DNA from: Vannielia litorea | GTDB taxonomy: Bacteria > Pseudomonadota > Alphaproteobacteria > Rhodobacterales > Rhodobacteraceae | Assembly (NCBI RefSeq): GCF_900142295.1 | Contig: NZ_FSRL01000001.1 | Span: 3,472,001 to 3,536,000, forward strand | Length of the DNA: 64,000 bases | Direction: 5' to 3' | Part shown: positions 25,223 through 61,143 of the stretch, one piece after another | Layout of the letters: every line of letters begins with the position of its first letter | Numbering within the stretch: position 1 is the stretch's first letter | The notes under the pieces: model-generated | The model's input: the letters and a program-made list of their open reading frames with translations, nothing else | Database searches by the model: none | Told to the model about the DNA's origin: nothing | Translations under genes and position numbers: made by a program

Positions 25223-25551
25223 TGCGCGGACTGCTGCTTCCCCTGCTTCTTGCCGGCTGCGTCGCCGCGGGAGACGGTGCCGCACCGCCTGCGGGCAAAC
25301 CCCTGGGTTACGAATTGCGCTCCACCGGAGTGGGCGTGCCCGGCTCGCCGCAGGAGGTGAGCTTCGACCGGGTCAATCCCGGCGCGACGATCGCGCTGCA
25401 AAAGCTCGCCGGGCCTGTTGTGACCGAGGAGCCTTGCGGCAACGGCATGGCGCTTGTGGGCTTTCGTGATGGCCTGACGGCTGTGTTCAGGGCACGCGAG
25501 TTCGTTGGCTGGACCGCGCAGGACCGGTCGGCGGGCATGACCTGCACCTGA
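25222..25551 (+). CDS. Small lipoprotein of unknown function downstream of regA
   Basis: Translation from the GTG at 25222 gives 109 residues starting RGLLLPLLLAGCVAAGDG, a clear lipoprotein signal with lipobox LAGC (Cys13). The mature part is small and has two further cysteines (in EEPCGNGM and at the penultimate residue), which could form a disulfide. The start shares one base with the regA stop, so it is translationally coupled to the redox response regulator. I do not recognise the family. The overlap and lipobox support it as a real gene. Confidence 0.6.
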   Translation: MRGLLLPLLLAGCVAAGDGAAPPAGKPLGYELRSTGVGVPGSPQEVSFDRVNPGATIALQKLAGPVVTEEPCGNGMALVGFRDGLTAVFRAREFVGWTAQDRSAGMTCT

Positions 25552-25572
25552 TCGGCCTGCGATGCGCTGACA

Positions 25573-26544
25573 TCAGAGCTTTGACAGGGCCGCGTCGAGC
25601 GGGGCCCAGTCTGCGAGGTCGAGGCGGACGGGCACTGTGAGCACCTTCTGGCGGAACTCGGCGGGCAGGCGCACGGCGTCCTTTTCCGTCGTGACCAGTT
25701 GCGCACCGAGCGTGGCCGCCTCCAGCTCCAACCGGGCCATGAGCGCGGGCGTCAGCGGCTGGTGATCGTCGAGCGCCTCGCCACGGATGAGGTTGGCGCC
25801 CAAGGCGCGCAGGGTGCTGAAGAACTTCTCGGGGTGGCCGATGCCGGCGAAGGCGAGGGTGGGCAGGCCCTGCCAGTCCATCCCGGTCTGCAGCGGCGCG
25901 AGGTGACCGGTGAGGTGAGGCATGGGGATCGCCGCGCCCCAGTCGGCGGCAAACCTCTGTTGAGCAGCCTCGGGACCGATGGAGAGCAGCAGGTCGGCGC
26001 GGGCCAAGCCGGCCGCGACGGGCTCGCGGAGCGGACCGGCGGGCAGGCAGCGGCCATTGCCGAAACCGCGATGGGCATCGACCACGACGATGGACAGGTC
26101 CTTGGTGACGGAGGGGTTCTGGAAGCCGTCGTCGAGAATTACCACCCGTGCCCCGGCGGCCTCGGCGGCGCGCACGCCGGCGGCACGGTCCTTGGCGACC
26201 CAGGTGGGGGCGAAGGCGGCGGTGAGCAGGGGTTCGTCGCCCACCTGCGCCGCATCGTGACCGCGCTCATCGACCTGCACCGGCCCCTCGAGGCTGCCGC
26301 CGTGACCACGGGAAACGACGTGGACGCCGGGGATGCGCTGGGCAAGTGCGATGACCGTGGGCGTTTTGCCGGTGCCACCCGCGTTGATGTTGCCGATGCA
26401 GATCACCGGAATGGAGGCGCGGTAGCCCGCGCGGGTGAGGCGGCGCGCCGTGGCGCGGGCATAGAGCGCGCCGAGAGGTGCGAGCGCACGGGCCTGCCAT
26501 GCGGGTGCGTCGGGCGGCGTGTACCAGAAGAGCGGAGCGCGCAT
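25573..26544 (-). CDS. lpxK: Tetraacyldisaccharide 4'-kinase
   Basis: LpxK phosphorylates the 4' position of the lipid A disaccharide precursor at the inner membrane. The 323-residue product has the start [20 protein letters not shown], Walker [17 protein letters not shown], the substrate segment [46 protein letters not shown] and [11 protein letters not shown]. Length is normal. It starts one base into the end of waaA (position 26544), so the two are coupled. Its end is convergent with the lipoprotein gene at 25222-25551. Confidence 0.95.
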
Positions 26545-27752
26545 CAGATCGCATCCCGGGTGTCGAGCAGGGTCGCGAGATGGGCGGCAAGCCGTGCGAT
26601 CACGGCGGCGCCCTCGGAGATTTCGGTCCAGGCGGCGGCGGCCAGTTCGGCGGCACGGTCGGGAGCCAGAAGCTCGGCCACCGCAGAGGGCAGCGCCTCG
26701 CCATTTGCCAGGGCGCGGGCCGCCCCGGCCCCGGCGAGGCGTGCCATGATCGCGGCCTCCTCGCCACCGCCGTGCGGCCCGAAGGTGATGGCGGAGCCCA
26801 GCGCGGCGGCGGGGGCGGAGGCCTGGACCGGCCCGCCGGGCGTGAGGGTGCCCCCCAGAAAGCAGAGCGGCGCCAGTCGAAACCAGAGCCCGTCTTCCTC
26901 GGGGGAGAGCCTGTCGGTGACATAGACCTCCGTTGTGTCGAGCGGCTCCTCGCCCCGGGCCCGGAAGGCGGAGGTCAGGCCCTGCTCGGCGAGCTCCACG
27001 GCGAGGGCATCGTCATCGGGGCAGTCCGCGCCGGGCACGAGCAGGAGAATGGCACGATGGGCGATTGCCAGCGCGGCGCGATGGGCCGCCAGCACATGGC
27101 CCAGCTCTTGCGCCAGCGGTCGTGCGGCGAGCCAGACGGGCCGCGCCGAGAGCCGCTCGGCTAGGTCGGCCCGGTCGCTCTCGATGCAGGGTGGCGGCGC
27201 GGGTGGGGCGACGAGCGGGCCGGTCAGGCGGATGCGGGTGGGCCCGACACCGGCAGCGCGGGCCGCCCCGGCGGCGGCGGCACTGCCGACCCAGAGCTCG
27301 GAAACCAGCCGCAGGGCGGCGCGGGTGGCACGATTGGCGCCCGCCAGCCCCTCCTCTCCGGGAGCGACAAGGGTTGTCGGGCAGGCGGTGCCCATGGCGG
27401 TCAGCAGGGCGATATCGCGGGGCGTGCCGACCCAGAGCGCGATATCGGGGCGCCATTCGAACAGGAAATCACGCAGCCCGGCCCGGCCGGGCTCGGGCGC
27501 ACGGCGATAGAGCAGCTTGGCATCGCCGGAGAAGTCGGGCTGTTCGGGGAGACCGGTGACAAGCAGGGAGACCGGATGAACCTCGGCAAGGGTGCGCCCG
27601 AGATCCTCCAGCGTGGCGGGGCTGCAGCCCTCGGCCACGTGGACCCAGACCAGCCGACCGGGAGGGCGCGTCTTGCCCGCTGCCGCGCCGGCCGCAGGCT
27701 GGCTGCGACCGGTCAGACCCGCGAAGGCCCGGGAGAGCGGAAAGCGGCTCAT
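26544..27752 (-). CDS. waaA: WaaA/KdtA-like Kdo transferase (divergent N terminus)
   Basis: WaaA adds Kdo from CMP-Kdo to lipid A precursors. The 402-residue product is GT-B-like, with [50 protein letters not shown], and late [20 protein letters not shown] plus [14 protein letters not shown], which resemble the KdtA C-terminal donor-site region (FVGGSL/GHNPLEPA/GPH). The usual N-terminal membrane anchor and the HxxSVGE motif are replaced (here HVAEG). Placement between DUF4170 and lpxK matches the Rhodobacteraceae lipid A locus. A divergent Kdo transferase is the best call, but catalytic equivalence is not shown. Confidence 0.8.
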
Positions 27753-27776
27753 GCGGGGCCGGGGGCGGGTCGGGGA

Positions 27777-28019
27777 TCAGCCCAGCTCTTCGGTCGGAGA
27801 GGCCTCGGCCTCCTCGTCGCGGAGCCGGTGGATATGGGCGATGTAGTAGCGCATGTGGGCGTTGTCGACGGTGCGCTGGGCCGCGGCCTTCCATGCGTCG
27901 AAGGCGGAGGCGTAGTCGGGAAACATGCCGACGATGTCGATGGCGTCGACATCCTTGAAGGCGCTCCTCGACGGGTCGATCAGCTCGCCGCCGAAAACGA
28001 GGTGCAGGCGTTGGGTCAT
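27777..28019 (-). CDS. DUF4170 family small protein
   Basis: The 80-residue product begins MTQRLHLVFGGELIDP and has PDYASAFDAWKAAAQRTVDN and AHMRYYIAHIHRL in the middle and C-terminal parts, the DUF4170 pattern. The function is not known. It sits directly upstream of waaA-lpxK, as in many Rhodobacteraceae. A Shine-Dalgarno-like GGAGAA lies 5 bases before the ATG. Codons 1-17 and the upstream region are part of a perfect 291-bp tandem duplication; this copy keeps the complete gene, while the second copy gives a chimera. Confidence 0.85.
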   Translation of the reverse strand: MTQRLHLVFGGELIDPSRSAFKDVDAIDIVGMFPDYASAFDAWKAAAQRTVDNAHMRYYIAHIHRLRDEEAEASPTEELG

Positions 28020-28258
28020 GGGCTTCTCCGAGGTTCCGGGCCGGTTGCGGCCGAGGGTAGAGGATTATGCCGGAGGGTTGAAGAAGGGTTGCGCCCTGCG
28101 CCCTCAGCGTGGCGCAGCGGCACGGGTGAGCCGGTCGTTGATGGCGAGGCCAAGGCCGTGCTGCGGAATGGGTGCCACGGCGATGGCGGTGCCCGGTTGC
28201 GCGTCGAGCGCGTGGAGCATCGAGAAGAGATTGGCGGCGGCTTCGCGCAGATCGCCCG
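27968..28258. repeat. Perfect 291-bp tandem duplication, copy A
   Basis: Position for position, 27968-28258 equals 28259-28549 (offset 291). Read on the minus strand, the unit holds about the last 155 bases of tsaC, the intergenic spacer with its Shine-Dalgarno, and the first 52 bases of the DUF4170 gene. No mismatch was seen by eye. The copy directly upstream of waaA keeps the intact DUF4170 start. Confidence 0.95.
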
Positions 28259-28310
28259 TCGACGGGTCGATCAGCTCGCCGCCGAAAACGAGGTGCAGGC
28301 GTTGGGTCAT
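28104..28310 (-). pseudogene. Chimeric mini-gene: DUF4170 start fused to TsaC end
   Basis: The tandem duplication joins the first 17 codons of the DUF4170 gene (MTQRLHLVFGGELIDPS) in frame to the last about 51 codons of tsaC (TGDLREAAANLFSMLHAL and on), giving 68 residues. It keeps the DUF4170 Shine-Dalgarno, so it may be translated. Neither part is a complete domain: it lacks the DUF4170 core and holds only the last part of the Sua5 C-terminal domain. It is best treated as a by-product of the duplication, probably without function, though a product could exist. Confidence 0.8.
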
Positions 28311-28549
28311 GGGCTTCTCCGAGGTTCCGGGCCGGTTGCGGCCGAGGGTAGAGGATTATGCCGGAGGGTTGAAGAAGGGTTGCGCCCTGCGCCCTCAGCG
28401 TGGCGCAGCGGCACGGGTGAGCCGGTCGTTGATGGCGAGGCCAAGGCCGTGCTGCGGAATGGGTGCCACGGCGATGGCGGTGCCCGGTTGCGCGTCGAGC
28501 GCGTGGAGCATCGAGAAGAGATTGGCGGCGGCTTCGCGCAGATCGCCCG
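28259..28549. repeat. Perfect 291-bp tandem duplication, copy B
   Basis: Second unit of the tandem repeat, abutting copy A with no spacer. Identity ends after 28549 (28259 is T where 28550 is C). Copy B keeps the real 3' end of tsaC, while its DUF4170 start runs into copy A. The unit length is divisible by three, so the fusion frame stays open. Confidence 0.95.
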
Positions 28550-29342
28550 CAGCGGAGAGGTTGGCGGCGGCCTCCGGGTGACCGGGGCCGAAGGCCAGAA
28601 AGAGCGCACCTTCGGGCGGCGTGGTCACGTTGAGCAGGACCGGCTTGGCCGGCGCGTAGTGCGAGGAGAGCTGGCCGGGCGCGCTTGGAGCGGTGTCGTT
28701 GGTCGGCGCGTCATGGTTCAGTGGTGCGCCGAGGGCGTCCTCCAGCGCCTCGACGGGCAGGCCACCCGGGCGGAGCAGGCGCGGCGTGGGGCCGGAGCAA
28801 TCGACGATGGTGCTTTCGACCCCGACCTCGGCCGGGCCGCCATCGAGCACGGCGGCGATGCGGCCCGAGAGAGCCTCGGCCACATGGGCGGCCGTGCTGG
28901 GAGAAATCCTGCCGGAGGGGTTGGCCGAGGGCGCGGCAAGCGGGCCGTCGAAGGCGGCGAGCAGCGCCTGGGCGAGCGGCAGCGCGGGAACGCGCAGCGC
29001 CACGGTCTGCAGCCCGGCGGTGACCAGCGGCGAAAGGCCGGCCTCCGGGCGGAGCGGGACCACCAGCGTGAGCGGGCCAGGCCAGAACGCCCGGGCGAGG
29101 CGGAGGGCTTCTCCTTCGATCGCCCCGATTGCGGCAGCGGCTTGAAGCGAGGGCAAGTGGCAGATCAGCGGGTTGAAGCGGGGGCGGCCCTTGGCCTCGA
29201 AGATCCCGGCCACGGCGGTGCCGTTGCGGGCATCGGCGGCAAGGCCATAGACCGTCTCCGTGGGTATCGCCACCAGAGCGCCTGCCCGCAGCAGCTCCAC
29301 CGCGCGGGTCACGCCTGCCTCGCCCTCCAGCCGTTCGGTCAT
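28395..29342 (-). CDS. tsaC: L-threonylcarbamoyladenylate synthase, Sua5 type
   Basis: Sua5/TsaC makes threonylcarbamoyl-AMP from threonine, bicarbonate and ATP for t6A37 in tRNA. The 315-residue product has the YrdC domain (VAIPTETVYGLAADA, IFEAKGRPRFNPLICHL, FWPGPLTLVVPL, APSANPSGRISPSTAAHV, STIVDCSGPTPRLLRPG) and, after a linker near LSSHYAPAKPVLL, the Sua5 C-terminal domain. The last 155 bases of the gene lie in the duplicated 291-bp unit. The gene ends intact here, and the upstream end is divergent from the acyl-CoA dehydrogenase gene. Confidence 0.95.
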   Translation of the reverse strand: MTERLEGEAGVTRAVELLRAGALVAIPTETVYGLAADARNGTAVAGIFEAKGRPRFNPLICHLPSLQAAAAIGAIEGEALRLARAFWPGPLTLVVPLRPEAGLSPLVTAGLQTVALRVPALPLAQALLAAFDGPLAAPSANPSGRISPSTAAHVAEALSGRIAAVLDGGPAEVGVESTIVDCSGPTPRLLRPGGLPVEALEDALGAPLNHDAPTNDTAPSAPGQLSSHYAPAKPVLLNVTTPPEGALFLAFGPGHPEAAANLSAAGDLREAAANLFSMLHALDAQPGTAIAVAPIPQHGLGLAINDRLTRAAAPR

Positions 29343-29451
29343 GCCGTTTCCCCGTGACGCCGCGTTTTGCGCCCTCCCTCTTGGGCGCGGGTGCCAACTC
29401 TCTTATGCTGCACGGCGCGGTGCCTCAAGGCCGCCCGAGGAGGAATTGCCC

Positions 29452-31158
29452 ATGCCCTACAAGGCCCCAGTCGAAGAGTTTCGCTTTCTGCTCAACCACG
29501 TGGTCGGCTACGGCCAGGTCACCGAAACCGAGCGTTTTGCCGAAGCGGGTGGCGAAATGATGGATGCGATCCTGACCGAGGCGGGGCGCCTCGCGAGCGA
29601 GGTTCTGGGCCCGTTGCAGCGCAATGGCGACCTGCATCCGGCGGTGCTGGAAAACGGCGTTGTGCGCACCTCCCCCGGCTTTGCCGAGGGATACAAGGCA
29701 ATTGCCGAGGGTGGCTGGATCGGCATCAGCGCCGACCCGGAGCACGGTGGCATGGGCCTGCCGATCACCTTGATGGAATCGGTGAACGAGATGATCAACG
29801 GCGCCTGCCTGTCGCTGGCGCTGAACCCGCTGCTGACCCAGGGCCAGATCGAGGCGCTGGAGCATCATGCCTCCGATGAGCTGAAGGCGCTCTACCTGCC
29901 CAAGCTCATCAGCGGCGAGTGGCAGGGCACCATGAACCTGACCGAGCCGCAGGCGGGCACCGATGTGGGCGCGCTGCGCACCAAGGCGGAGCCCGACGGC
30001 GACGGCACCTACCGGATCAGCGGTCAGAAGATCTACATCAGTTGGGGCGATGCGGATTTTGCCGAGAATGTCTGCCACCTGGTCCTCGCCCGCCTGCCCG
30101 ATGGCGTGCCGGGCACCAAGGGCATCAGCCTGTTCATGGTGCCTCGGAACATTCCGGACGAGAACGGCAAACCGGGCGAGCGCAACAGCCTGCGCGTGGT
30201 GAGCCTCGAGCACAAGATGGGCCTGCACGGCTCGCCCACGGCGGTGATGGAATACACCGAGGCCAAGGGCTGGCTGGTGGGCCGCGAGCATGGCGGCATG
30301 GCGGCGATGTTCACCATGATGAACAATGCCCGCCTGGGCGTGGGCATCCAGGGCATCGGCGTGGCCGAGGCCGCCACTCAGGCCGCGGTGGCCTATGCGG
30401 CCGAGCGCAAGCAGGGCAAGGTGGGCGGCGCGGGCACGATCATCGAGTTCCCCGACGTGCGGCGGATGCTGATGACCATGCGGGCCGAGACCCAGGCGGC
30501 TCGCGCGATCGCGCTGGCCAACGCCGTGGCGCTCGACATGGCCAATGCCACCGGCGACGCCGGATGGGCCGCCCGCGCGGCGCTTCTTACCCCGATCTCC
30601 AAGGCCTATGGCACCGACGTGGGCTGCGAGGTGGCGGCGACGGGCATCCAGGTGCACGGCGGCATGGGATTCATCGAGGAAACCGGCGCGGCGCAGTTCT
30701 ACCGGGATGTGCGCGTGACCACGATCTACGAAGGCACCAACGGCATCCAGGCGCTCGACCTCGTGGGCCGCAAGCTGATGGATGGCGGCGAGGCGGCCTT
30801 TACCCTGATCTCCGAGGTCGAAGAGGCCGCGGAGGCCGCACGGGCGCAGTTTCCCCGGCTGGCGGATGCCGTCTGGAACGCCGCGGAGGTGCAGCGCGAC
30901 CTGACCGAGGCAGTGCTGGAGATGGACATGGACGCCCGCGGCGCGGTGGCGGTAGCCTACCTGCGCGCCTTCGCGCGCGTGCTCGGCGCGCATTATCACC
31001 TTGCCAGCGCCGTGGCGGAAGGCGGCAACGGCCCACGAACCGGCCTTGCGCGGTTCTACGTCATGCGTCTGCTCCCCCAGCACACGGGACTGGCGGCGGA
31101 AGTGAGGATGGGATCGGAAGGCATGGACGCCCTTTCCAACGAGGAGCTGGCGGGCTAG
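29452..31158 (+). CDS. Acyl-CoA dehydrogenase (DmdC/FadE5-like)
   Basis: The 568-residue product is a long-form FAD acyl-CoA dehydrogenase: an N-terminal extension (MPYKAPVEEFRFLLNHVVGY), the MNLTEPQAGTDVGALRTKAE flavin/substrate loop, KIYISWGDADFAENVCHLV, the late TIYEGTNGIQALDLVGRK with the probable catalytic Glu, and a C-terminal all-helical domain. This architecture matches DmdC-like enzymes that oxidise methylmercaptopropionyl-CoA in roseobacters and also other long acyl-CoA dehydrogenases. The substrate is not decided here; no dmdB or dmdD gene is nearby. The ATG at 29452 has GAGGAGG 8 bases upstream. It is divergent from tsaC and runs on to an MBL gene. Confidence 0.9.
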   Translation: MPYKAPVEEFRFLLNHVVGYGQVTETERFAEAGGEMMDAILTEAGRLASEVLGPLQRNGDLHPAVLENGVVRTSPGFAEGYKAIAEGGWIGISADPEHGGMGLPITLMESVNEMINGACLSLALNPLLTQGQIEALEHHASDELKALYLPKLISGEWQGTMNLTEPQAGTDVGALRTKAEPDGDGTYRISGQKIYISWGDADFAENVCHLVLARLPDGVPGTKGISLFMVPRNIPDENGKPGERNSLRVVSLEHKMGLHGSPTAVMEYTEAKGWLVGREHGGMAAMFTMMNNARLGVGIQGIGVAEAATQAAVAYAAERKQGKVGGAGTIIEFPDVRRMLMTMRAETQAARAIALANAVALDMANATGDAGWAARAALLTPISKAYGTDVGCEVAATGIQVHGGMGFIEETGAAQFYRDVRVTTIYEGTNGIQALDLVGRKLMDGGEAAFTLISEVEEAAEAARAQFPRLADAVWNAAEVQRDLTEAVLEMDMDARGAVAVAYLRAFARVLGAHYHLASAVAEGGNGPRTGLARFYVMRLLPQHTGLAAEVRMGSEGMDALSNEELAG

Positions 31159-31167
31159 GTCCGCGGC

Positions 31168-32211
31168 ATGGACGCACAGCCCATCTCCTTTCCTTGGGAT
31201 AGCCCGCCTGCCCCAGGCGCGGCGATCGAAGTGGCCTTGGGCATCCTCTGGCTGCGGCTGCCGCTGCCGATGGCGCTGGATCACGTGAATATTTTCGCGC
31301 TCGACGAGGGCGAGAGCTGGGCGGTGATCGACACCGGCATCGGCTCGAAGAAGAGCCGGGAGATCTGGCAGGCGCTGCTCGACGGGCCACTTGGCGGCAA
31401 GCCGGTGGGGCGGGTTTTTCTGACGCACCACCACCCGGATCACGTCGGCAACGCCGGATGGTTGATGCAGGAGCATGGGGCCGAGCTGTGGTCGACCCGG
31501 TTGTGCTGGACGCTGACCCGCATGCTCCAGCTCGACGAGCAGGCGCGGCCCAACGAGGAGACCAAACTGTTCTGGCGCCGCGCGGGGATGGACCCGGCTG
31601 TCTATGCGAGGCGGTGCGAGGAGCGGCCCTTCAACTTTGCCGATATCACCTGGCCGCTGCCTGTGGGGTTTCAGGCGTTGCACGAGGGCCAGCGGCTCAC
31701 CATCGGTGGGCGGCGCTGGACCGTGCATATCGGCAATGGCCACGCGCCGCAGCACGCAACGTTCTGGTGCGATGACGAACCGCTGGTGCTGGGCGGCGAC
31801 CAGCTCTTGCCGTCGATCTCGCCCAACCTCGGGGTCTATGCCTCCGAGCCCGATGCCGACCCGGTGGGCGAGTGGCTGGAGAGCTGCGCGCGCCTCGGGG
31901 CCTATGCCCGAGACGACCAGCTCGTGCTGCCGGGCCACAAGCTGCCCTTCACCGGCCTGCCCGCGCGGCTGGTGCAGATGGCCGACAACCACCATACGGC
32001 GCTGGCCCGGCTGCTGGAGCACCTCTCCGATAGGCCCGGCACCGTGCACGACTGTTTCGAGCCGATCTTCGGGCGGCGGATCGAGGGCGATACCTACGGG
32101 CTGGCGCTGGCAGAGGCGGTGGGGCACCTCAACCATCTCTATGCCACCGGAAGAGTGAGCCGTGAGCCCGGGGCGGATGATGCGTGGATCTACAGGGTGG
32201 TCGAGCCATGA
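31168..32211 (+). CDS. MBL-fold metallohydrolase
   Basis: The 347-residue product has the metallo-beta-lactamase core: a turn with VIDTGIG, metal ligands THHHPDHVGNAGW (residues 87-92 HHHPDH), HIGNGHAPQHATFWC with a third His, LVLGGDQLLPSISPNLG with the bridging Asp, and LPGHKLPF. A C-terminal helical domain, of the type seen in LACTB2/BLACT-winged-helix hydrolases, follows. It is probably a zinc hydrolase of a thioester or nucleic-acid type substrate. It lies 9 bases after the acyl-CoA dehydrogenase and overlaps the next gene (ATGA), so the three are probably one operon. Confidence 0.88.
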   Translation: MDAQPISFPWDSPPAPGAAIEVALGILWLRLPLPMALDHVNIFALDEGESWAVIDTGIGSKKSREIWQALLDGPLGGKPVGRVFLTHHHPDHVGNAGWLMQEHGAELWSTRLCWTLTRMLQLDEQARPNEETKLFWRRAGMDPAVYARRCEERPFNFADITWPLPVGFQALHEGQRLTIGGRRWTVHIGNGHAPQHATFWCDDEPLVLGGDQLLPSISPNLGVYASEPDADPVGEWLESCARLGAYARDDQLVLPGHKLPFTGLPARLVQMADNHHTALARLLEHLSDRPGTVHDCFEPIFGRRIEGDTYGLALAEAVGHLNHLYATGRVSREPGADDAWIYRVVEP

Positions 32212-32687
32212 GTGACGAAGAGATCCGCACGCTCGCGGAGGCGCATGAAGAGAGCGCCCTTTTGCGGTCGCGCGCGGTTCATGCTGATCCGGATGCCCCG
32301 GCAACGGCGGAGCAGAAGCCTTTGCCGGAGGCGCTTTGTGCGCGTCCGACAGAAGAGAAGTCGCCCGCAGAATGGGCCTATGAGCGGCTCATTCTCTACA
32401 TCCAGAATTTCGAGGAGCAGCTCGACAAGGATGAGGAGATCGCCATGGGGATGACCGATGGTGGCGCCGGGCTGCTGCGGATCGAGGGGATCGGGTTTTT
32501 TGCGCCCGATATCGTCAGCTTCTACGGGCGCGACATGGAGGGGGGCCGGATGCAGCTTGTTCAGCATGTGACCCAGCTGAACGTGACGCTCCGGGCGCTG
32601 CCCAAGCCCAAGGGCGAGGTCGAGGCGCAGCGCATCGGCTTTCGGCTGGCCAAGGGGTTGGGCCGGGGGGAAACGACGGGCGAATAG
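32208..32687 (+). CDS. DUF6173-like small protein
   Basis: The 159-residue product has a charged N-terminal 60 residues and then PAEWAYERLILYIQNFEEQL, RIEGIGFFAPDIVSFYGRD and MQLVQHVTQLNVTLRALP, conserved in Rhodobacteraceae small proteins assigned to DUF6173. No enzyme motif is visible. It has no signal peptide or membrane segment, so it is cytosolic. The start overlaps the MBL gene stop as ATGA. The family assignment is from memory of the sequence pattern. Function is unknown. Confidence 0.75.
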   Translation: MSDEEIRTLAEAHEESALLRSRAVHADPDAPATAEQKPLPEALCARPTEEKSPAEWAYERLILYIQNFEEQLDKDEEIAMGMTDGGAGLLRIEGIGFFAPDIVSFYGRDMEGGRMQLVQHVTQLNVTLRALPKPKGEVEAQRIGFRLAKGLGRGETTGE

Positions 32688-32692
32688 CGGGC

Positions 32693-33583
32693 TCATCGCC
32701 GGGCGATGCGCGTGGCCTCCCACTCCGGACCGGCCTCGTCGGAACCCTCCGCGAAAACGGCAAGGCTGACCGGCCTGCGCAGATCGTGAAACCGATAGAC
32801 CGCGCAGCAGCTGAACGGACCGGAGCCGGAATGGCCCTCGACCCGGCCTGCCGCCTCCACCTCTCCCGACATCACGCCAAGACCGTAGCCCGTTGTTGTC
32901 CAGGGCCGGCCCGCGATGGGGCCGCCGAGGCGGTGGATTGCATCTTGCGGGGTGTGGCAGAGCGCGTGCACGAGCAGGGCGGCATCTGACGCGGAGCCGA
33001 TGAAGCAGCCGTGGTAGACCCAGCCGGGGTGGTAGCCGTCAGCGCCGGGCATCTCCGCGAAATCCTCTGGAAGCTCGGCCAGCCGCATGGTGGTGAGACC
33101 GAGGGGTTGGGCGAAATACCGCGCGGCGAGGGTGCTGAGCGGTTCGCCGGCTGCCGTTTCCACCGCTTCACGGGCGAGCATGTAGCCGACGTTCGAATAG
33201 GCCCAGCCTTTGCTCGGGGCGAACCCCGGCTGATCGCGCAGCTCCCGCATGAGCCGCTCCCGGTGCCAGGGAGGTTCGCGCCGCGCGACGGCCGCGTGAT
33301 AGGCCTTCAGGCGGCTGTAGCAGGGCACGCCGGCCCGGTGCTGGAGAAGCTGGCGGAGGGTCCAGGGGGCGTCGCCCTGGGCGTCGAGATCGAGCCTTCC
33401 GTCCGCGCTGAGACGCAGGGCGATGGCAGCGATGATCGTCTTGGAAAAGCTCCACCACGGGTGAATGCGCGACGGGTCGCCCTGCGCACCGATCGTGCCG
33501 TCATCGAAGATCCAGGCTGCGTCCATCACGGGCCCCGAAACAGAATGGAGGGCCTCGACCCCCGAGACCCTCCATCTTCCCAC
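32693..33583 (-). CDS. Beta-lactamase-family serine hydrolase
   Basis: The 296-residue product has the class C/DD-peptidase pattern: SxxK motif SFSK (Ser45, Lys48) in HPWWSFSKTIIAAIAL, YxN motif in GWAYSNVGYML, and a KTG-like region present as EGHSGSGPFSCC. It has no signal peptide, so it appears cytosolic, as for esterase-like members (EstB type). It could be an esterase or amidase rather than an antibiotic-hydrolysing enzyme. It converges with the DUF6173 gene and is preceded on its own strand by a 332-base stretch without genes. The start could be the Met at residue 20. Confidence 0.85.
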   Translation of the reverse strand: MGRWRVSGVEALHSVSGPVMDAAWIFDDGTIGAQGDPSRIHPWWSFSKTIIAAIALRLSADGRLDLDAQGDAPWTLRQLLQHRAGVPCYSRLKAYHAAVARREPPWHRERLMRELRDQPGFAPSKGWAYSNVGYMLAREAVETAAGEPLSTLAARYFAQPLGLTTMRLAELPEDFAEMPGADGYHPGWVYHGCFIGSASDAALLVHALCHTPQDAIHRLGGPIAGRPWTTTGYGLGVMSGEVEAAGRVEGHSGSGPFSCCAVYRFHDLRRPVSLAVFAEGSDEAGPEWEATRIARR

Positions 33584-33915
33584 GAGCTCCCAATCGCACC
33601 GCTCGTATCTGGTATGTCCCGGGTCGTCCTGACCGTTCGCTTGAGGGGGGTCTAACCCGGATGTCGCGCCCGATCAATCTTCTTGTCCAGAAAAGTCGAT
33701 GTTTTACAGTTGGTTATGGTGTGTGGCGCGTTAACCATGCGACGGGCCGTTCGGCTGCCGACATGTGCGTGCCGGCGATCGGGCGAGATCGGGCCAACTG
33801 CCCGGAACCAAAGAGGGAACTGCCGATCAGGCACCTCCCCCCTGAATGACCGTCCACCGCAGTGGCCGCCACGGATCTTTCGATAGGGTTACCGATCAGG
33901 CGGGTTCTGGCCGCC
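33584..33915. other. Intergenic stretch of 332 bases between two minus-strand genes
   Basis: Holds the upstream region of the serine hydrolase gene and the downstream region of the DUF2853 gene. A less GC-rich patch lies near 33680-33760. On the minus strand TTGATC and TAGACC lie 17 bases apart near 33651-33679, a weak promoter-like pair. Short open frames here (for example 33661-33849, plus strand) have no Shine-Dalgarno or recognisable domain. I see no RNA gene or clear repeat. Confidence 0.4.
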
Positions 33916-34257
33916 TTACTTGTAAACCGAGTCTTTCTTGAAGTGCTTCACCAGCAGGTAATAGAAGACCGCGCGATACTTGTTGCGCTCGGATTTGCCG
34001 TAGGTCTCGATCGCCTTCTCGATGCCGGCCATCAGGTCGGGGCCGGCCTTGAGGCCGAGTTTCTTGACCAGGAAGTTCTTCTCGATCGTTTCGAGCTCGC
34101 TCTTCTGGCTGGCGGCGACGGTGGAAGCATCGTCGTTGTAGATCGAGGGACCGCAACCGATGGTCACCTTCGTCAGCAGGTCCATGTCGGGCGTCATCCC
34201 GCATTTGTTTTTCAGATCGTCGGCGTACTTCGCGATCAACTCGTCTCTCTTGCCCAT
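33916..34257 (-). CDS. DUF2853 family protein
   Basis: The 113-residue product matches DUF2853: DELIAKYADDLKNKCGMTPD, LLTKVTIGCGPSIYNDDAST, ETIEKNFLVKKLGLKAGPDL and the Tyr/Lys-rich end RAVFYYLLVKHFKKDSVY. It is a small, probably helical cytosolic protein; its function is unknown. The ATG at 34257 follows a GAGGGAG-like Shine-Dalgarno. It is divergent from uspA, with 292 bases between the two starts that must hold both promoters. Confidence 0.88.
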   Translation of the reverse strand: MGKRDELIAKYADDLKNKCGMTPDMDLLTKVTIGCGPSIYNDDASTVAASQKSELETIEKNFLVKKLGLKAGPDLMAGIEKAIETYGKSERNKYRAVFYYLLVKHFKKDSVYK

Positions 34258-34549
34258 GATGCTTCACTCCCTCGCATGGTGGCACTCCGGCGAGTTCTCC
34301 CGCCGTTGCCCGGGACCATACGCAACACCCCCCCACCGGCAAAGAAAAAATCCTGAAAACGCCCGGTCAACCCCAAGTCTGGCGACATCCTGCCCCCGTT
34401 CCGGTGGCTCGCCGGACATCCGGGCCCCGGCAAGAAAATCCGTGACAGGGATGCAGTTTATCGAACAGGTTGAGGGGGCGAACCGCCGGTTGGCTTCAAT
34501 TTCCTGGCGAGTCCGGCGGGACTTGGACAAAGGAAACGGGGGACAGTAC

Positions 34550-34987
34550 ATGAGTTCTGAGACATTCATCGTCGCGTATGAGGGCGAGAAGGGCGATACG
34601 CCCACGCTCGACTACGCGATCGAACGTGCGAAGAAGGACGGCGCGAACCTGCTCGTCGTCCATATCCTCGAATGGTCGCCATACAGCTTTCTCACGCCCG
34701 AGGAGATCGAAGAGCGTCACGGACGCCGCAAGCAGGAGATGGCCCGCGCCAAGGAGGTCGTGCTCGATCCGGCGCTGGCCAAGGTCGAGGCCGCGGGGCT
34801 TCAGGGCGCCGCCGAGCTGCGTTACGGCAATGTCGTCGACAAGATCGTGGAGATCGCCAACGAGAAGAAGGCGTCAATGATCTTCGTCGGGCGGGCCGGG
34901 TCACAATCCATAGCGGCCCGGGTCTTCGGTTCGGTGCCGATCGGGCTGGCCCAGGTTGCCCCCGTACCCACCGTGATCGTGCCCTGA
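34550..34987 (+). CDS. Universal stress protein (UspA family)
   Basis: The 145-residue product has the Usp fold: FIVAYEGEKGDTPTLDYAIERA, LLVVHILEWSP, and the ATP-binding loop FVGRAGSQSIAARVFGS (G-2x-G-9x-GS pattern), ending APVPTVIVP. The loop is intact, so ATP binding is likely. The gene ends 16 bases before the symporter, so the stress protein is probably co-expressed with it and may regulate the carrier. I chose the ATG at 34550; the frame is open upstream but has no family similarity. Confidence 0.93.
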   Translation: MSSETFIVAYEGEKGDTPTLDYAIERAKKDGANLLVVHILEWSPYSFLTPEEIEERHGRRKQEMARAKEVVLDPALAKVEAAGLQGAAELRYGNVVDKIVEIANEKKASMIFVGRAGSQSIAARVFGSVPIGLAQVAPVPTVIVP

Positions 34988-35003
34988 GCGCCGGAGAAAA
35001 CCC

Positions 35004-36545
<1,542 letters not shown>

Positions 36546-36551
36546 TCCACA

Positions 36552-36581
36552 GGGCGCTCCGCGAGGTCTTGCGGGGCGCCC
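36552..36581. terminator. Hairpin after the AGCS symporter gene
   Basis: GGGCGCTCCGC pairs with GCGGGGCGCCC across an 8-base loop: an 11-bp stem with one T:G pair, starting 7 bases after the symporter stop and ending 5 bases from the convergent reductase stop. There is no T run on the plus side, so it may act as a two-way, partly Rho-assisted terminator or as an mRNA-stabilising 3' end. Confidence 0.5.
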
Positions 36582-36585
36582 ATGC

Positions 36586-37548
36586 TCAGCCGAAGAGCGC
36601 CGTTTCGAGCTCCTTGTCGCTCAGGCTCCCGGCCTCACCGCCCTCTGACATCAGGCGAAGCGAGAGCGCCTGCGCCCGCGCGTTCAACGGGGCGTCCACG
36701 CCGTGAAGCCGGGCCAGCCGGACGATCTCGCCGTTCAGCCAGTCTGTCTCCACGCTGCCGGTCCCGCGCGCGAGGCTCTGGGTGGTGGAGTTGCCGACCC
36801 GGCCTTCACCACTGTCCCGGGTGCGCATGAGGACCTCGCGGCGCGGATCCGTGCCCAGGTCGGCCCAGTCGATCCCGGCGGCCTCGAGGACGGCCTTGCC
36901 CTCCTCGCGCAACGGCCCGTCGAAGGGGGCGCAATCGGCACCGGCGGGCAGCAGGGCGCCGGTGATGTTGCCGAGATTGAGGATCAGCTTGCCCCACTTG
37001 GGGGCCATCGCATCGTCGCGCACGAAACAGGCGATGTTGGCGGCGTTCAGCGCCTCGGACAGGGCCTCATCGGCCTCATCCCGGCCGAACGGATAGCGGC
37101 CCATCTCGAAGATGCCGAAGCGCGGCTCGCAGCCGATGGTCACCTCGCCGGGCGTGGCGTAGCCCGCGGGCATCATCACCGTGACGGCATGGACGTTGGG
37201 AAAGTAGCGCAGCGCCATGTCCTCGTTCGCCACGCCGTTCTGAAGGCAGAACAGCGGCTGGTCGGTCATGCCTGCTGCCCGCAGGTCGGCCAGTGCGGCC
37301 TCGGTGTGCTGGGTCTTCACGCAGAGCAGCACCACGTCATCGGGGCGGAAGGTGATTTCGCGCGGGTGGGCGACGCAGGCAAACCGGGCACGCTCCCGGC
37401 CGCGGGCGGAGTCGAGCGTGAGCCCGCCTGCCGTGATGGCTTGCAGCATGGGGTCACGGGCGATGCCCAGCACCTCCTGCCCCGACAGGGCCAGCGCGGC
37501 TGCGACCACACCGCCGATCGCTCCAACTCCGTGCACGATAACCCGCAT
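36586..37548 (-). CDS. 2-dehydropantoate 2-reductase-like protein (ApbA/PanE family)
   Basis: PanE reduces ketopantoate to pantoate with NADPH for CoA synthesis; many paralogues have other 2-keto acid substrates. The 320-residue product has the N-terminal nucleotide-binding loop HGVGAIGGVVAAALALSGQ, VLLCVKTQHTE, FCLQNGVANEDMA, then KWGKLILNLGNITGAL (with the catalytic Lys) and NGEIVRLARLHGVDAPLN near the C terminus, all typical of PanE. I chose the ATG at 37548. It lies downstream of ahcY on the same strand behind a strong terminator, so it is probably transcribed separately. Confidence 0.85.
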   Translation of the reverse strand: MRVIVHGVGAIGGVVAAALALSGQEVLGIARDPMLQAITAGGLTLDSARGRERARFACVAHPREITFRPDDVVLLCVKTQHTEAALADLRAAGMTDQPLFCLQNGVANEDMALRYFPNVHAVTVMMPAGYATPGEVTIGCEPRFGIFEMGRYPFGRDEADEALSEALNAANIACFVRDDAMAPKWGKLILNLGNITGALLPAGADCAPFDGPLREEGKAVLEAAGIDWADLGTDPRREVLMRTRDSGEGRVGNSTTQSLARGTGSVETDWLNGEIVRLARLHGVDAPLNARAQALSLRLMSEGGEAGSLSDKELETALFG

Positions 37549-37565
37549 GGGCGCTCCTCCAATTG

Positions 37566-37592
37566 AAAAGGCCCCGAGGTCTCCCCGGGGCC
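37566..37592 (-). terminator. Rho-independent terminator after ahcY
   Basis: On the minus strand, GGCCCCG and CGGGGCC pair (7 bp) across a 9-base loop and are followed directly by TTTT. It lies about 40 bases beyond the ahcY stop and in front of the reductase gene, so it separates the two transcripts. Confidence 0.75.
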
Positions 37593-37604
37593 CGTTTGCC
37601 GCAG

Positions 37605-37621
37605 GGTGGGTCAAACCCACC
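37605..37621. repeat. GGTGGGT-NNN-ACCCACC hairpin element, copy 1 (after ahcY)
   Basis: A perfect 7-bp stem with a 3-base loop, starting 6 bases beyond the ahcY stop. The same stem occurs at 59464-59480 just after another stop codon. It looks like a small intergenic palindromic element or 3' stabiliser and sits next to the ahcY terminator. Confidence 0.6.
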
Positions 37622-37627
37622 GCAGGT

Positions 37628-39016
37628 TCAATAGCGGTAGTGCTCGGGCTTGAACGGCCCCTCGGGCGTGACGCCGATGTACGCGGCCTGATCCTTGGAG
37701 AGCTTGGAGAGCTTCACCCCGATGCGCTCGAGGTGGAGCATGGCCACCTTCTCGTCGAGGTGCTTGGGCAGGATGTAGACGCCGGGCTGATACTCTTCAC
37801 CCTTGGTCCAGAGCTCGATCTGCGCCAGCACCTGGTTGGTGAAGCTCGCGCTCATCACGAACGACGGATGCCCGGTGGCGTTGCCGAGGTTCAGCAGGCG
37901 GCCTTCCGAAAGCAGGATGATTCGGTTGCCGCCCGGCATTTCGATCATGTCCACCTGGTCCTTGATGTTGGTCCATTTGTGGTTGCGCAGGTTGGCGACC
38001 TGGATCTCGTTGTCGAAGTGGCCAATGTTGCCGACGATGGCCATGTCCTTCATCTCGCGCATGTGCTCGATGCGGATCACGTCCTTGTTGCCTGTGGTGG
38101 TGATGAAGATGTCGGCCGAAGAGGCCACGTCTTCGAGCGTCACCACCTCGTAGCCGTCCATCGCCGCCTGAAGCGCGCAGATCGGGTCGACCTCGGTGAC
38201 CTTCACGCGGGCGCCGGCGCCACGCAGCGAGGCGGCAGAGCCCTTGCCGACGTCGCCGTAGCCGCAGACCACGGCCACCTTGCCGGCCATCATGGTATCG
38301 GTCGCGCGGCGGATGCCGTCGACCAGCGATTCCTTGCAGCCATACTTGTTGTCGAACTTCGACTTGGTCACCGAGTCGTTGACGTTGATCGCCGGGAAGG
38401 GCAGGAGGCCCTTCTTGTGCAGGTCGTAGAGGCGGTGCACGCCGGTCGTGGTCTCTTCCGACACGCCCTTGATGGCGTCGCGGGTCCTGGTGAACCAGCC
38501 GGGGCTCTCGGACATGCGCTTGGCGATCTGCTTCTTGATGACCTCTTCTTCCTCCGATTGCGGCACGGGGATGATTTCTTCGCCCGCCTCGGCCCGCGCG
38601 CCGAGCAGCACGTAGAGGGTGGCGTCGCCGCCGTCATCGAGGATCATGTTGGCGCCCTCGGGGAACTGGAAGGACTTGTCGAGATAGTCCCAGTGCTCCT
38701 CGAGGCTCTGGCCCTTTACGGCGAACACCGGGATGCCGGCCTTGGCGATGGCGGCCGCGGCGTGATCCTGGGTGGAAAAGATGTTGCAGGAGGCCCAGCG
38801 CACATCGGCCCCCAGCGCCACGAGGGTCTCGATCAGCACGGCGGTCTGGATGGTCATGTGGAGCGAGCCCACGATGCGCGCGCCCTTCAGCGGCTTGCTC
38901 TCGCCAAACTCGGCGCGACAGGCCATCAGGCCGGGCATCTCGGTTTCGGCGATGTCCAGCTCCTTGCGGCCGAACTCGGCGAGGGAGATGTCTTTTACTG
39001 TGTAATCGGCAGCCAT
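37628..39016 (-). CDS. ahcY: S-adenosylhomocysteinase
   Basis: AhcY hydrolyses S-adenosylhomocysteine to homocysteine and adenosine, closing the methyl cycle. The 462-residue product has the family blocks: [70 protein letters not shown], the NAD-binding loop [45 protein letters not shown] and the C-terminal KPEHYRY (NAD-contacting Lys/Tyr). I chose the ATG at 39016, which gives the usual [14 protein letters not shown] start. A terminator and a hairpin element follow. I saw no clear riboswitch in the 84 bases upstream. Confidence 0.98.
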
Positions 39017-39100
39017 CGGGCGCTCCCACTGCAGGTTCCGTTTGCAGCGCACATAGCACCCGACCCATGGGGCGGCAACACGACCTGCCAGGCAGGGTTA

Positions 39101-39415
39101 TCAGGAGTCCTCTCCGGTGGTCGTGACAGGCAGGGCGCTGTGCCAGTCGGTGCCGGTGGCGAGAACGCAACTGATGCCGTCTGGCCGCGTGCCGAGAAGG
39201 GTGAAGCTGCCGGTTTCCTTGGAGGCCCAGAGCTCGAGAAGCCGAGAGGGGCCCTGAAGCCCGCCGCCGTGCAGGGTTTCGCCGAACCGCAGCTGGAGTT
39301 GGGCGACCATCTGGTCACGGTCGAGGCAGAAGGCCTGCGTTTGCGCCGAGGCGTGAGGGGGTGCGAGGGCTGCCGCGCCGAACACCAGCGCCGCCGATAC
39401 GATCCGTTTGTACAT
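39101..39415 (-). CDS. Small secreted protein, paralogue 1
   Basis: The 104-residue product starts MYKRIVSAALVFGAAALAPPHASAQ, a Sec signal peptide cleaved near ASAQ. The mature part (about 80 residues) contains FCLDRDQMVAQLQLRFGET, ELWASKETGSFTLLGTRPDG and ISCVLATG, with two Cys that could form a disulfide. The gene at 39577 encodes a paralogue with the same layout. I do not recognise the family. A GAAAGGACC ribosome site precedes the adjacent GTG/ATG starts; I use the ATG. Expected location is periplasm or outside. It lies upstream of ahcY on the same strand. Confidence 0.7.
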   Translation of the reverse strand: MYKRIVSAALVFGAAALAPPHASAQTQAFCLDRDQMVAQLQLRFGETLHGGGLQGPSRLLELWASKETGSFTLLGTRPDGISCVLATGTDWHSALPVTTTGEDS

Positions 39416-39576
39416 CACGAGGTCCTTTCCCGCATGGAGAGCGGACCAGCAGCCAGATCGTTGTCGGGCAGCAAGCCCGCTTGGTTACAGATACATCATA
39501 TATAGGGGTTTTGGCGCTGGATTTCCCGGTTGCGGGGTCATCTCGCGAGAAGGTGTCTGGCCGCGATCCCGGAGGT

Positions 39577-39882
39577 TCAGCTTGCGGTGCCGCGCACACC
39601 GACGAAGGCGGGCGCCTCGTGAAAATCCTCGCCGGTGAGGGCCACGCAGGTGACGCCGTCAGCCCCGGTGACGAGAATGGTGAAGCTGCCGGTTTCCTTG
39701 GAGGCCCAGATCTCCACCAGGCTGTTCTCGCTTTGCAGGCCGCCGGCGACGGGCTGCTCCTGGTAGGTGTCCACCAGCTGGTCGACGAAGTATTCGCGCT
39801 TACCGCAGGGGCCATCGGCGCTTTGCGCGACCAGGGGCGCGGCGGCGAACATCAGGGTGGCGGTGGCGATTGCGGTTTTCAT
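39577..39882 (-). CDS. Small secreted protein, paralogue 2
   Basis: The 101-residue product has a Sec signal (MKTAIATATLMFAAAPLVAQ) and a mature part of about 80 residues with CGKREYFVDQLVDTYQEQ, VEIWASKETGSFTILVTGAD and VTCVALTGEDFHEAP. It matches the protein at 39101-39415 in order of motifs, in the two Cys positions and in the central WASKETGSFT block, where the DNA is identical over 32 bases (39679-39710 and 39200-39231). Both face the same way and lie 161 bases apart. Function is unknown; likely a periplasmic protein. Confidence 0.7.
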   Translation of the reverse strand: MKTAIATATLMFAAAPLVAQSADGPCGKREYFVDQLVDTYQEQPVAGGLQSENSLVEIWASKETGSFTILVTGADGVTCVALTGEDFHEAPAFVGVRGTAS

Positions 39883-40048
39883 GGCACTGTTCCTCCGGGC
39901 GTCGCCCGCTCTGCGCGGGGCGGCATGCCTGCGGTGTGAATCTCCTTGCTTGTCAGGTGGATAACCTCGTGATCCCCATGCCGGTTCCACGCCGCGTTTA
40001 CACCCTGACGTGATCGCGCTACCCAAACCGGGCGAGAGGGAGACGAAC

Positions 40049-40645
40049 ATGGCCAAGGCACCGCCCCGCGCATGGCAGCGCATGCTCTCGGGTCGCAGGC
40101 TCGACCTGCTGGACCCGACGCCGGTGGATATCGAGATCGAGGACATCGCCCACGGGCTCGCCTTCGTTGCGCGCTGGAATGGCCAGACCAAGGGAGATTT
40201 TGCCTATTCGGTCGCCGAACATTCGCTGCTCGTCGAGGCGCTGTTCAGCCGGATGAATCCCGGTGCCCCGGCCAAGTGGCAGCTCGCCGCCCTCCTGCAT
40301 GACGCGCCCGAATACGTGATCGGCGACATGATCTCACCGGTGAAGGCCGCGGTCGGGCCTGATTATGGCGCGCTGGACGACAGGCTGGCGGCGGCGGTGC
40401 ACATCCGGTTCGGCCTGCCTGCGGCAATTCCGGCGGCGGTGAAGAAGCAGATCAAGAAGGCCGACAAGGTTTCGGCCTGGCTCGAGGCCACGCGCATTGC
40501 GGGGTTCACGGTGGTAGAGGCCAACAGGTTCTTCGGAGTTCCCGCGCCCGAGTTGATCGACGGCATGCAGATCACGCTGCGGCCGCCGGTGGAGGTGCGC
40601 AACGACTTCACCGCGCGCCACGCCGAGCTGTTGGCCGCCCTCTGA
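40049..40645 (+). CDS. HD-domain phosphohydrolase (YfbR-like)
   Basis: YfbR-type enzymes are metal-dependent 5'-deoxynucleotidases. The 198-residue product has HD residues in the order typical of the family: FAYSVAEHSLLVEALF, LAALLHDAPEYVIGDMISPVK with the His-Asp metal pair, and ADKVSAWLEATRIAG. I chose the ATG at 40049, with GAGAGGGAGA 6 bases upstream; the frame is open for 13 more codons. It is divergent from the secreted-protein genes and overlaps the next gene by one base, which suggests a plus-strand operon of three genes to 42041. Confidence 0.88.
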   Translation: MAKAPPRAWQRMLSGRRLDLLDPTPVDIEIEDIAHGLAFVARWNGQTKGDFAYSVAEHSLLVEALFSRMNPGAPAKWQLAALLHDAPEYVIGDMISPVKAAVGPDYGALDDRLAAAVHIRFGLPAAIPAAVKKQIKKADKVSAWLEATRIAGFTVVEANRFFGVPAPELIDGMQITLRPPVEVRNDFTARHAELLAAL

Positions 40646-41562
40646 TGGCGCCGCTGGCCCTGCGCGCCCTGATCTTCGGGCTCTACGCGGCGCTGGCCTA
40701 CGCGATGTTCTTCCTGGTGCCGAGCGATACCAATGTGCTCTGGCTGGCGCTCTGGTTTGCGCTGGGCCTCGGATTTGCCGGGCAGCTGGTGTTCGACTGG
40801 CGCCGCAGCCTCGGTTTCTGGGTTGTCGTCGGCCGCACCAGCCTGGCGCTTCTGGTGATTGCCGCGGCCCTCGTGCTGCTCTGGGTGGAAACGGTGATCT
40901 GCGTCGCGATGATCCTGCCCATCGCGATCCTCGTCGCCGTGGCGGGAATCGCGCTCACCCGGCTGCTCCTCGAACGGTTCGAGAGCCGCAACCGGCTATG
41001 CGCGGCCCTGCTGGCGCTGCCGCTGGTCCTCCCCGTGATCGACATGCCCGCGCCGGGCATCGAAGAGGTGATCTCGGTCACGACGGTCGTGACCATTGCC
41101 GCCCCTGTGGCGGAGGTGCGGGCCCTGGCCGAAAACGTCTCTGACATTGCCGCAGACGAGCGCCCCTGGACTCTCACCCACAATGTGCTCCGCGCGCCGC
41201 GCCCGCTCTCGGCCACCACCCGGAACGGTATTCGCCATGCCCGTTGGACGAAGGGCGTGCGGTTCGAGGAGCACCTGCTGCCGGGGCCGGACCTCGCCTG
41301 GCGCTTCGCCTTTCCCGAGCCCGGATTGATGCGCGCGCTCGACCCGCGCATTTCTCCGACCGGGCCCGAGGTGGTGATGCTGGAGGGTCGCTACGTGTTC
41401 GAGCCGTCAGGTCCGGCAGGCACCCGCGTGAGCCTCACCACCACGTATCGGCTCGACACCCCGATCAACCCCTATCTCAAGCCTTGGGGCCACCTGCTGC
41501 TGAACGACATGCACAACGCTGTTCTTCACGTGATCGCCAAGAGAGCCGAGGCCGCCTCATGA
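40645..41562 (+). CDS. Membrane protein with C-terminal SRPBCC-like domain
   Basis: The 305-residue product has five hydrophobic segments in the first about 135 residues (for example ALRALIFGLYAALAYAMFFL and LALLVIAAALVLLWVETVI), followed by a soluble domain of about 165 residues containing ISVTTVVTIAAPVAEVRALA, MLEGRYVFEPSGPAGTRVSL and TTTYRLDTPINPYL, a START/SRPBCC-like pattern of ligand-cup proteins. No known specific function. It shares one base with the upstream HD gene and overlaps the GNAT gene by 4 bases, so it is operonic with both. Confidence 0.75.
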   Translation: MAPLALRALIFGLYAALAYAMFFLVPSDTNVLWLALWFALGLGFAGQLVFDWRRSLGFWVVVGRTSLALLVIAAALVLLWVETVICVAMILPIAILVAVAGIALTRLLLERFESRNRLCAALLALPLVLPVIDMPAPGIEEVISVTTVVTIAAPVAEVRALAENVSDIAADERPWTLTHNVLRAPRPLSATTRNGIRHARWTKGVRFEEHLLPGPDLAWRFAFPEPGLMRALDPRISPTGPEVVMLEGRYVFEPSGPAGTRVSLTTTYRLDTPINPYLKPWGHLLLNDMHNAVLHVIAKRAEAAS

Positions 41563-42041
41563 TCCATATTCGCCCCGCCGCCACCGCAGATGCCCGCGCG
41601 ATTGCAGAGATGCTGCAGGAGATCGTCGATGCCGGAGGCACAACGGCGCTGACGGGTCGGGTGACCCGCAACGATATCGTTGAATGGATGGCCGTATCCC
41701 CCCGCGCCGCCTGGCACGTGGCAGAGGACGATGCGGGCGAGTTGCTGGGCTTCCAGTGGATCGACCCGATGGGGGAGGAACCCGAGACCTGCGCCGAGAT
41801 CGCCACTTTCGCCCGGCGTGGGCGGACCGGGCTGGGCATCGGGTCGGCCCTGTTCGAGGCCACCCGGAAGGCGGCAAGACGCCTTGGTTACCGGTGGATC
41901 AGGGCCAATATCCGCGCCGACAACACCGGCGGACTGGCCTATTACCAATCGCGCGGGTTCGAGGATTACGGGCGGATCGAGGGATACGTGATGGGCGATG
42001 GCACCGTGGTGGACAAGGTGCTCAAGCGATACGACCTGTGA
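41559..42041 (+). CDS. GNAT-family N-acetyltransferase
   Basis: The 160-residue product has the GNAT layout: HIRPAATADARAIAEMLQEI at the start, a beta-strand hairpin around LLGFQWIDPMG, and the acetyl-CoA-binding region GRTGLGIGSALFEATRKAARRLGYR, then IRADNTGGLAYYQSRGFEDY. The R/Q-x-x-G-x-G/A loop is present as RTGLGIG. The acceptor is not predictable; the general layout resembles phosphinothricin-type acetyltransferases. Start overlaps the membrane-protein gene stop (ATGA). Convergent with the DUF1761 gene. Confidence 0.85.
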   Translation: MIHIRPAATADARAIAEMLQEIVDAGGTTALTGRVTRNDIVEWMAVSPRAAWHVAEDDAGELLGFQWIDPMGEEPETCAEIATFARRGRTGLGIGSALFEATRKAARRLGYRWIRANIRADNTGGLAYYQSRGFEDYGRIEGYVMGDGTVVDKVLKRYDL

Positions 42042-42050
42042 GCGGGTGGC

Positions 42051-61110: not shown

Positions 61111-61143
61111 ATACACAACCCATACACAACCCATGCACAACCC
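61111..61143. repeat. Three tandem 11-bp repeats (ATACACAACCC)
   Basis: The units are ATACACAACCC, ATACACAACCC and ATGCACAACCC, end to end with no spacer, one helical turn each. They lie in the 138-base gap between the convergent permease and GntR gene ends. A tandem array of this spacing may be a protein-binding site or a slippage product; nothing decides between them here. Confidence 0.6.

Follow-up and report, generated by a model that had tools for sequence, protein, structure and literature searches.

A perfect 291-bp tandem duplication across the tsaC-DUF4170 joint of Vannielia litorea and its chimeric reading frame

In the genome of Vannielia litorea, two identical stretches of 291 bp lie head to tail across the joint between tsaC and a gene for a DUF4170 protein. 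What kind of event leaves a second, unaltered copy of such a stretch between two neighboring genes, and does the fused reading frame that results matter to the cell? We addressed these questions in a window of 64,000 bp (contig NZ_FSRL01000001.1, called C1 below, positions 3,472,001 to 3,536,000), in further stretches of the same genome, and in related genomes. The reading that we prefer, with a probability of roughly 0.6, is that a recent and spontaneous head-to-tail duplication of 291 bp, which has no function of its own, took place in Vannielia, a genus of marine Rhodobacterales.

RESULTS

Structure and rarity of the repeat

The locus contained the following features.

27968..28258, no strand: copy 1 of the unit (all 291 positions identical to copy 2, by TRF and by direct comparison)
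28259..28549, no strand: copy 2 of the unit (all 291 positions identical to copy 1, by the same two methods)
28395..29342, minus strand: tsaC (Sua5 type), 315 aa, intact (PF01300 and PF03481)
27777..28019, minus strand: DUF4170 gene, 80 aa, intact (PF13773, 83.5 bits)
28020..28103, and the same again at 28311-28394, minus strand: 84-nt spacer from the copied tsaC stop to the DUF4170 start; GGAG precedes the ATG
26544..27752, minus strand: 402-aa gene between DUF4170 and lpxK, with a similar gene at the same place in other genomes of the genus
25573..26544, minus strand: lpxK, 323 aa (PF02606, 311 bits)

An initial annotation, made from the letters alone, had described a perfect in-frame tandem duplication across the tsaC/DUF4170 joint. 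This description was borne out, and the coordinates and 100% identity that it gave for the unit proved exact: TRF assigned the array a score of 1164, with 2.0 copies, 100% matches, and 0 indels. On the minus strand, the unit started inside tsaC codon 265, ran through the tsaC stop and the 84-nt spacer, and ended at base 1 of DUF4170 codon 18. Both parent genes were full length, as the annotation had stated (315 aa and 80 aa), and the length of TsaC was the same as in the relative G003. In the case of the 402-aa gene, a Pfam search at E 0.001 yielded no match; we call this gene waaA based on its position only.

The lack of divergence between the copies had been read as the sign of a recent event. 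Our estimate supported this reading, since any divergence between the copies is below about 1.02% at the 95% level, unless recombination keeps them alike. The 291-bp array was the sole perfect tandem duplication with a period of 30 to 5000 bp in the 471 kb of the V. litorea genome that was scanned, and it stood alone in about 1.78 Mb overall (overlaps included). The larger scan consisted of these 471 kb, 302 kb from congeneric genomes, and 1.00 Mb from further loci; the groups overlap, the last group includes some loci of the genus, and seven loci that were repeats of the window region or short spurious matches were omitted. The runner-up among exact direct repeats in the window was only 32 bp in length. 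Its two copies were located at 39200-39231 and 39679-39710, which are 479 bp apart.

A different kind of repeat was seen at 61111-61143, where three head-to-tail 11-mers (CACAACCCATR) were located in an intergenic region. The two-unit pattern, with up to two mismatches, occurred 81 times in the V. litorea genome (46 on the plus strand and 35 on the minus strand, with overlapping matches counted apart), and a reversed control pattern occurred 0 times. The pairs were scattered over dozens of sites on C1 and C2, which makes them a genome-wide phased repeat motif.

The chimeric reading frame

The repeat generated one additional reading frame.

28104..28310, minus strand: chimeric ORF, 68 aa, composed of DUF4170 codons 1-17, a hybrid codon ACG, and TsaC codons 266-315

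The 68-residue chimera was located where it had been annotated, its frame was confirmed on the minus strand, and the proposal that it carries its own copy of the DUF4170 Shine-Dalgarno sequence was supported. The annotation had attributed the open frame to a unit length that is divisible by 3. The frame is indeed kept, but this explanation also requires tsaC and DUF4170 to be in the same frame already; agreement modulo 3 between both genes and the unit length keeps the chimeric frame open. An open frame does exist, but the label "mini-gene" was too strong, as the chimera matched only positions 87-136 of the 136-position Pfam Sua5_C profile. The locus has two of the marks of a chimeric gene formed by tandem duplication, namely, an in-frame fusion over the junction and intact parent genes.

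When the chimera was used as a protein query, 152 proteins were matched, and the best 120 of the 152 were examined. The best match was the window's own protein (one member, one contig). All 120 matches listed carried the Sua5_C domain, and the DUF4170 part was absent from the other 119, which resembled the DUF4170 protein and its first 17 residues at chance level only. A few matches showed 96-100% coverage of the chimera; in these cases, their own TsaC sequence was loosely aligned to the DUF4170 part. The window TsaC was alone in its 90% cluster, the next best protein was 88% identical (best 120 of 8000 scored), and the TsaC of EBW16 (L034), a strain named V. litorea, showed 84% identity. Because the best 120 of the 8000 scored included no conspecific protein, the uniqueness of the chimera cannot separate a real event from an artifact.

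Gene order in related genomes

None of the six other genomes from the genus had tsaC adjacent to DUF4170. The two genes were on different contigs in G001 and G006, and the DUF4170 contig of G006 ended just upstream of the gene, so this genome was informative from the tsaC side only. When up to about 1.5 kb on each side was considered, tsaC was found near DUF4170 only in the V. litorea locus among 30 DUF4170 loci, and DUF4170 was absent from about 1.5 kb on each side of tsaC in 29 tsaC loci (L005-L033). Homology to the six genomes occurred in two separate blocks: a tsaC block that extended from about 32.66 kb of the window to 28.39-28.40 kb, and a block with DUF4170, the gene in the waaA position, and lpxK that extended from about 25.59 kb to 28.08-28.10 kb. 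Upstream of DUF4170, homology to relatives extended 63-76 nt before the start. In this leader, homology began 9-13 nt past the tsaC stop in five genomes and 22 nt past it in G001.

In a comparison with G005, the neighbors of DUF4170 on both sides flanked an interval on V. litorea C1 (3,595,461-3,602,394) that is about 95 kb away, and in this interval, the former site of DUF4170, 6.9 kb of other genes were found. In a comparison with G003, only one flank of the interval was matched in the stretch compared. Most of the 6.9-kb block, which was compared with G001 and G003 to G006, directly adjoined the tsaC block on its upstream side in G003, G004, and G006, and it was not in this place in the stretches compared of G005 and G001. 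Given the position of the block in G003, G004, and G006, the idea that the duplication marks a fresh rearrangement joint was not upheld. Window positions 32.70-42.05 kb were inverted in G003 and G005, and 7.1 kb (25.59-32.66 kb) was missing between 25.5 and 42.05 kb in the same two genomes; G004 agreed as far as it was compared.

A cysQ-like gene adjoined DUF4170 in several outgroups. The simplest account of these gene orders is that the common ancestor would have had the order cysQ - tsaC block - DUF4170 - waaA - lpxK, with separate pieces relocated in different lineages. If so, the adjacency of tsaC and DUF4170 may be old and may predate the duplication.

Two further observations were made on gene order. 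The cysQ-side block and the tsaC/DUF4170/waaA/lpxK blocks (window 25536-32702 and C1:3595461-3602394) were in complementary places between lineages, next to a 9.3-kb inversion (32702-42046). In addition, tsaC was located tail to tail with a gene in G003 (L164:9893-12156) and G002 that is presumably mtaB, a pairing that would make neighbors of two genes whose products target one tRNA base.

The junction and the ends of the unit

Short-junction (SJ) tandem duplications have two head-to-tail copies and a short direct repeat common to both endpoints. The two copies were present here, and the direct homology was 0 bp: microhomology would have produced more than two units of periodic sequence, and the array was exactly 2.0 units long. 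The initial annotation had pointed to a GACGGG/GCCCG context at the junction as a possible trace of microhomology. That proposal was rejected, as the repeat ended exactly after two units and the similarity that had been noticed is inverted, not direct. By the direct-repeat criterion, the locus is not a classical short-junction duplication, and the product is of the same kind. A 0-bp junction was found for 49% of 20,967 endpoint pairs spaced 291 bp apart in the window; hence, the blunt junction is uninformative alone. The 20 nt around the two endpoints were similar at 8/20 positions, as was the case for 23% of controls.

The inverted similarity was located as follows.

28244..28278: new junction (between 28258 and 28259) in an imperfect palindrome, with two mismatches and a single bulge between arms of 17 and 18 nt; centre 2 bp right of the breakpoint
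27972..27987, and the same again at 28263-28278: left arm of an imperfect inverted repeat, at the unit start, which pairs with the unit end in a DNA fold
28535..28549, and the same again at 28244-28258: right arm of this inverted repeat, at the unit end

Under one scoring scheme, the junction palindrome had a score of 10, which was reached by 9 of 15,600 random junctions: 0/600 with 291-bp spacing in the window, 2/6000 in a larger set with the same spacing, 6/6000 in stretches of the V. litorea genome with 100-1000 bp spacing, and 1/3000 with random endpoints near the locus and one unit omitted. When the unit was folded as single-stranded DNA, 12.4 pairs were expected between the first and last 20 nt. 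This value was equaled by 0 of 400 and then 5 of 2200 random 291-mers (5/2,600 together). Shifting an endpoint by 20 nt nearly eliminated the end pairing and shifting it by 10 nt left 4-9 pairs, a drop that is partly built in because the measure covers the outer 20 nt only. The energy of the arm duplex alone was less rare (matched by 36 of 5000 controls), and the unit as a whole folded no better than shuffles (z 0.15). The chance rates, which are about 1/1,700 for the palindrome, 1/520 for the end pairing, and 1/140 for the arm duplex, are all post hoc, as the palindrome and pairing tests were chosen after the junction had been seen. The inverted repeat at the unit ends is suggestive.

Possible routes to the duplication

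In our preferred reading, the tsaC/DUF4170 joint would by chance have held an imperfect inverted repeat 291 bp across, and opposite strands would have been broken near the base of the fold that it forms. Synthesis would then have filled the long overhangs, and Ku and LigD would have joined the ends with no need for homology; fill-in and sealing would leave a single additional copy that corresponds exactly to the overhang. Ku (158.6 bits, C1:2073259-2073798) and a LigD polymerase domain (308.4 bits, C1:2075619-2076356, within an 841-aa frame) are encoded about 2 kb apart, and thus blunt end joining is possible. The absence of microhomology also agrees with a Ku/LigD duplication, although chance endpoints give a blunt junction half the time, and the inverted repeat on which this proposal draws was noticed post hoc. 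A search for SbcC produced one match at 20.6 bits, which is below the cut-off and says little.

Replication slippage is the strongest competitor, and we consider it possible but unlikely. Here, a nascent strand would fold into a hairpin on the inverted-repeat ends and the polymerase would copy the unit a second time, with no involvement of Ku or LigD. The pairing of the unit ends and the palindrome at the junction are consistent with such a fold, and slippage of this type does not require a direct repeat at the endpoints. However, the chance rates given above carry the same post hoc qualification here, and the end-joining route predicts an identical product. The inverted repeat may set the sites of the strand breaks or let the nascent strand fold back, and the sequence fits both.

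By either route, the duplication is probably young and neutral, and it is probably unstable. Perfect tandem repeats are expected to be lost via slippage or recombination, and therefore the culture may be mixed.

Assembly error and selection as explanations

Another explanation, which we view as rather unlikely, is that the second copy is an assembly artifact, in which ends overlapping by 291 bp were joined unmerged or the stretch was entered twice during consensus building. An unmerged overlap would leave just such a perfect identity and blunt junction, and the fused protein is derived from a single contig among the matches listed. In addition, position 3,500,000 of C1 falls inside copy 1, which may be due to chance. 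On the other hand, no perfect tandem duplication was found in 18 stretches of 20 kb at other 100-kb multiples of C1, so a systematic fault at round contig positions was not seen. Furthermore, the assembly consists of 3 contigs for 4.1 Mb, and C1, which carries the repeat, is 3.64 Mb in length; this suggests long reads, which would span the 582 bp of the array. An untrimmed rotated circle is also unlikely, since the ends of C1 (about 6 kb each) did not overlap and no dnaA-like ORF, as judged by eye, opened C1 in its first 6 kb.

The 18 round-position stretches did contain imperfect coding arrays, and the largest of these had a 66/132-bp period (L154:15707-16063).

It is very improbable that selection keeps the copy because the cell benefits from the chimeric peptide or from an additional DUF4170 leader: the frame is open behind the native DUF4170 start site and its GGAG, and the copied leader includes the region of homology to relatives, but the fused part is a Sua5_C fragment, no similar fusion was among the 120 matches listed of 152, an in-frame fusion arises by chance about 1 time in 3, and a simple sigma-70 type scan of 27700-29500 revealed no promoter-like or terminator-like site. 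The same scan led us to reject a duplicated promoter. In our preferred reading, the chimeric ORF is a by-product that may be translated from the copied DUF4170 start site, and it is unlikely to act in the cell.

DISCUSSION

In-frame fusion through tandem duplication is a known kind of event. In Staphylococcus aureus, sigH was fused to nusG or rplK by short-junction tandem duplications with units of 1210 and 1888 bp and endpoint direct repeats of 8 and 7 bp; the fusions were found under selection, a fusion protein was shown, and the duplications were reversible (PMC3486894). The V. litorea locus shares their layout, in which the start and first codons of the downstream gene continue in frame into the last part of the upstream gene, with both parents intact. 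It differs from them in its 291-bp unit and its lack of a direct repeat, and its fusion protein is a predicted one (PMC3486894).

A precedent for the end-joining route comes from mouse stem cells, in which the joining of breaks with 46-nt overhangs produced tandem duplications; this study names blunt ligation of filled-in ends as one sealing route and states that end-joining proteins were needed (PMC5730883). The likeness to that system is that one extra copy of the overhang sequence between opposite-strand breaks is gained, and V. litorea encodes bacterial counterparts of end-joining proteins. However, the mouse case is eukaryotic and induced, whereas the V. litorea case is bacterial and natural, its mechanism is inferred, and the 291-nt overhangs that it would need exceed the 46 nt of the mouse system, which argues against our preferred reading (PMC5730883).

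In Salmonella, duplications arise often in growing cultures, and the duplications confirmed there had endpoint direct repeats of at least 11 bp, unlike the 0-bp junction described here (PMC3411829). That work retained a junction only if its microhomology was 7-9 bp or more, and a 0-bp junction was not confirmable there (PMC3411829). The V. litorea locus appeared in no title or abstract among the papers listed for DUF4170 and for Vannielia.

A broader idea is that the ends of some bacterial tandem duplications are determined by inverted repeats instead of direct ones. Pairable coding stretches, once brought to within some 300 bp, would mark out a unit for copying in full and for sealing that requires no homology, and neighboring genes would be fused in frame; the locus would then be a fresh case, and the fused ORF a gene at birth. 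We consider this generalization improbable, with the odds heavily against it.

If the second copy is an artifact, then the locus cautions that a protein in the databases (68 aa, with a match to Sua5_C) stems from a joining error. If the duplication is real, it would be a clear snapshot of how a small duplication fuses neighboring genes, taken before the additional copy changes or disappears, and the locus would offer a natural experiment on whether inverted repeats direct such duplications without a direct repeat.
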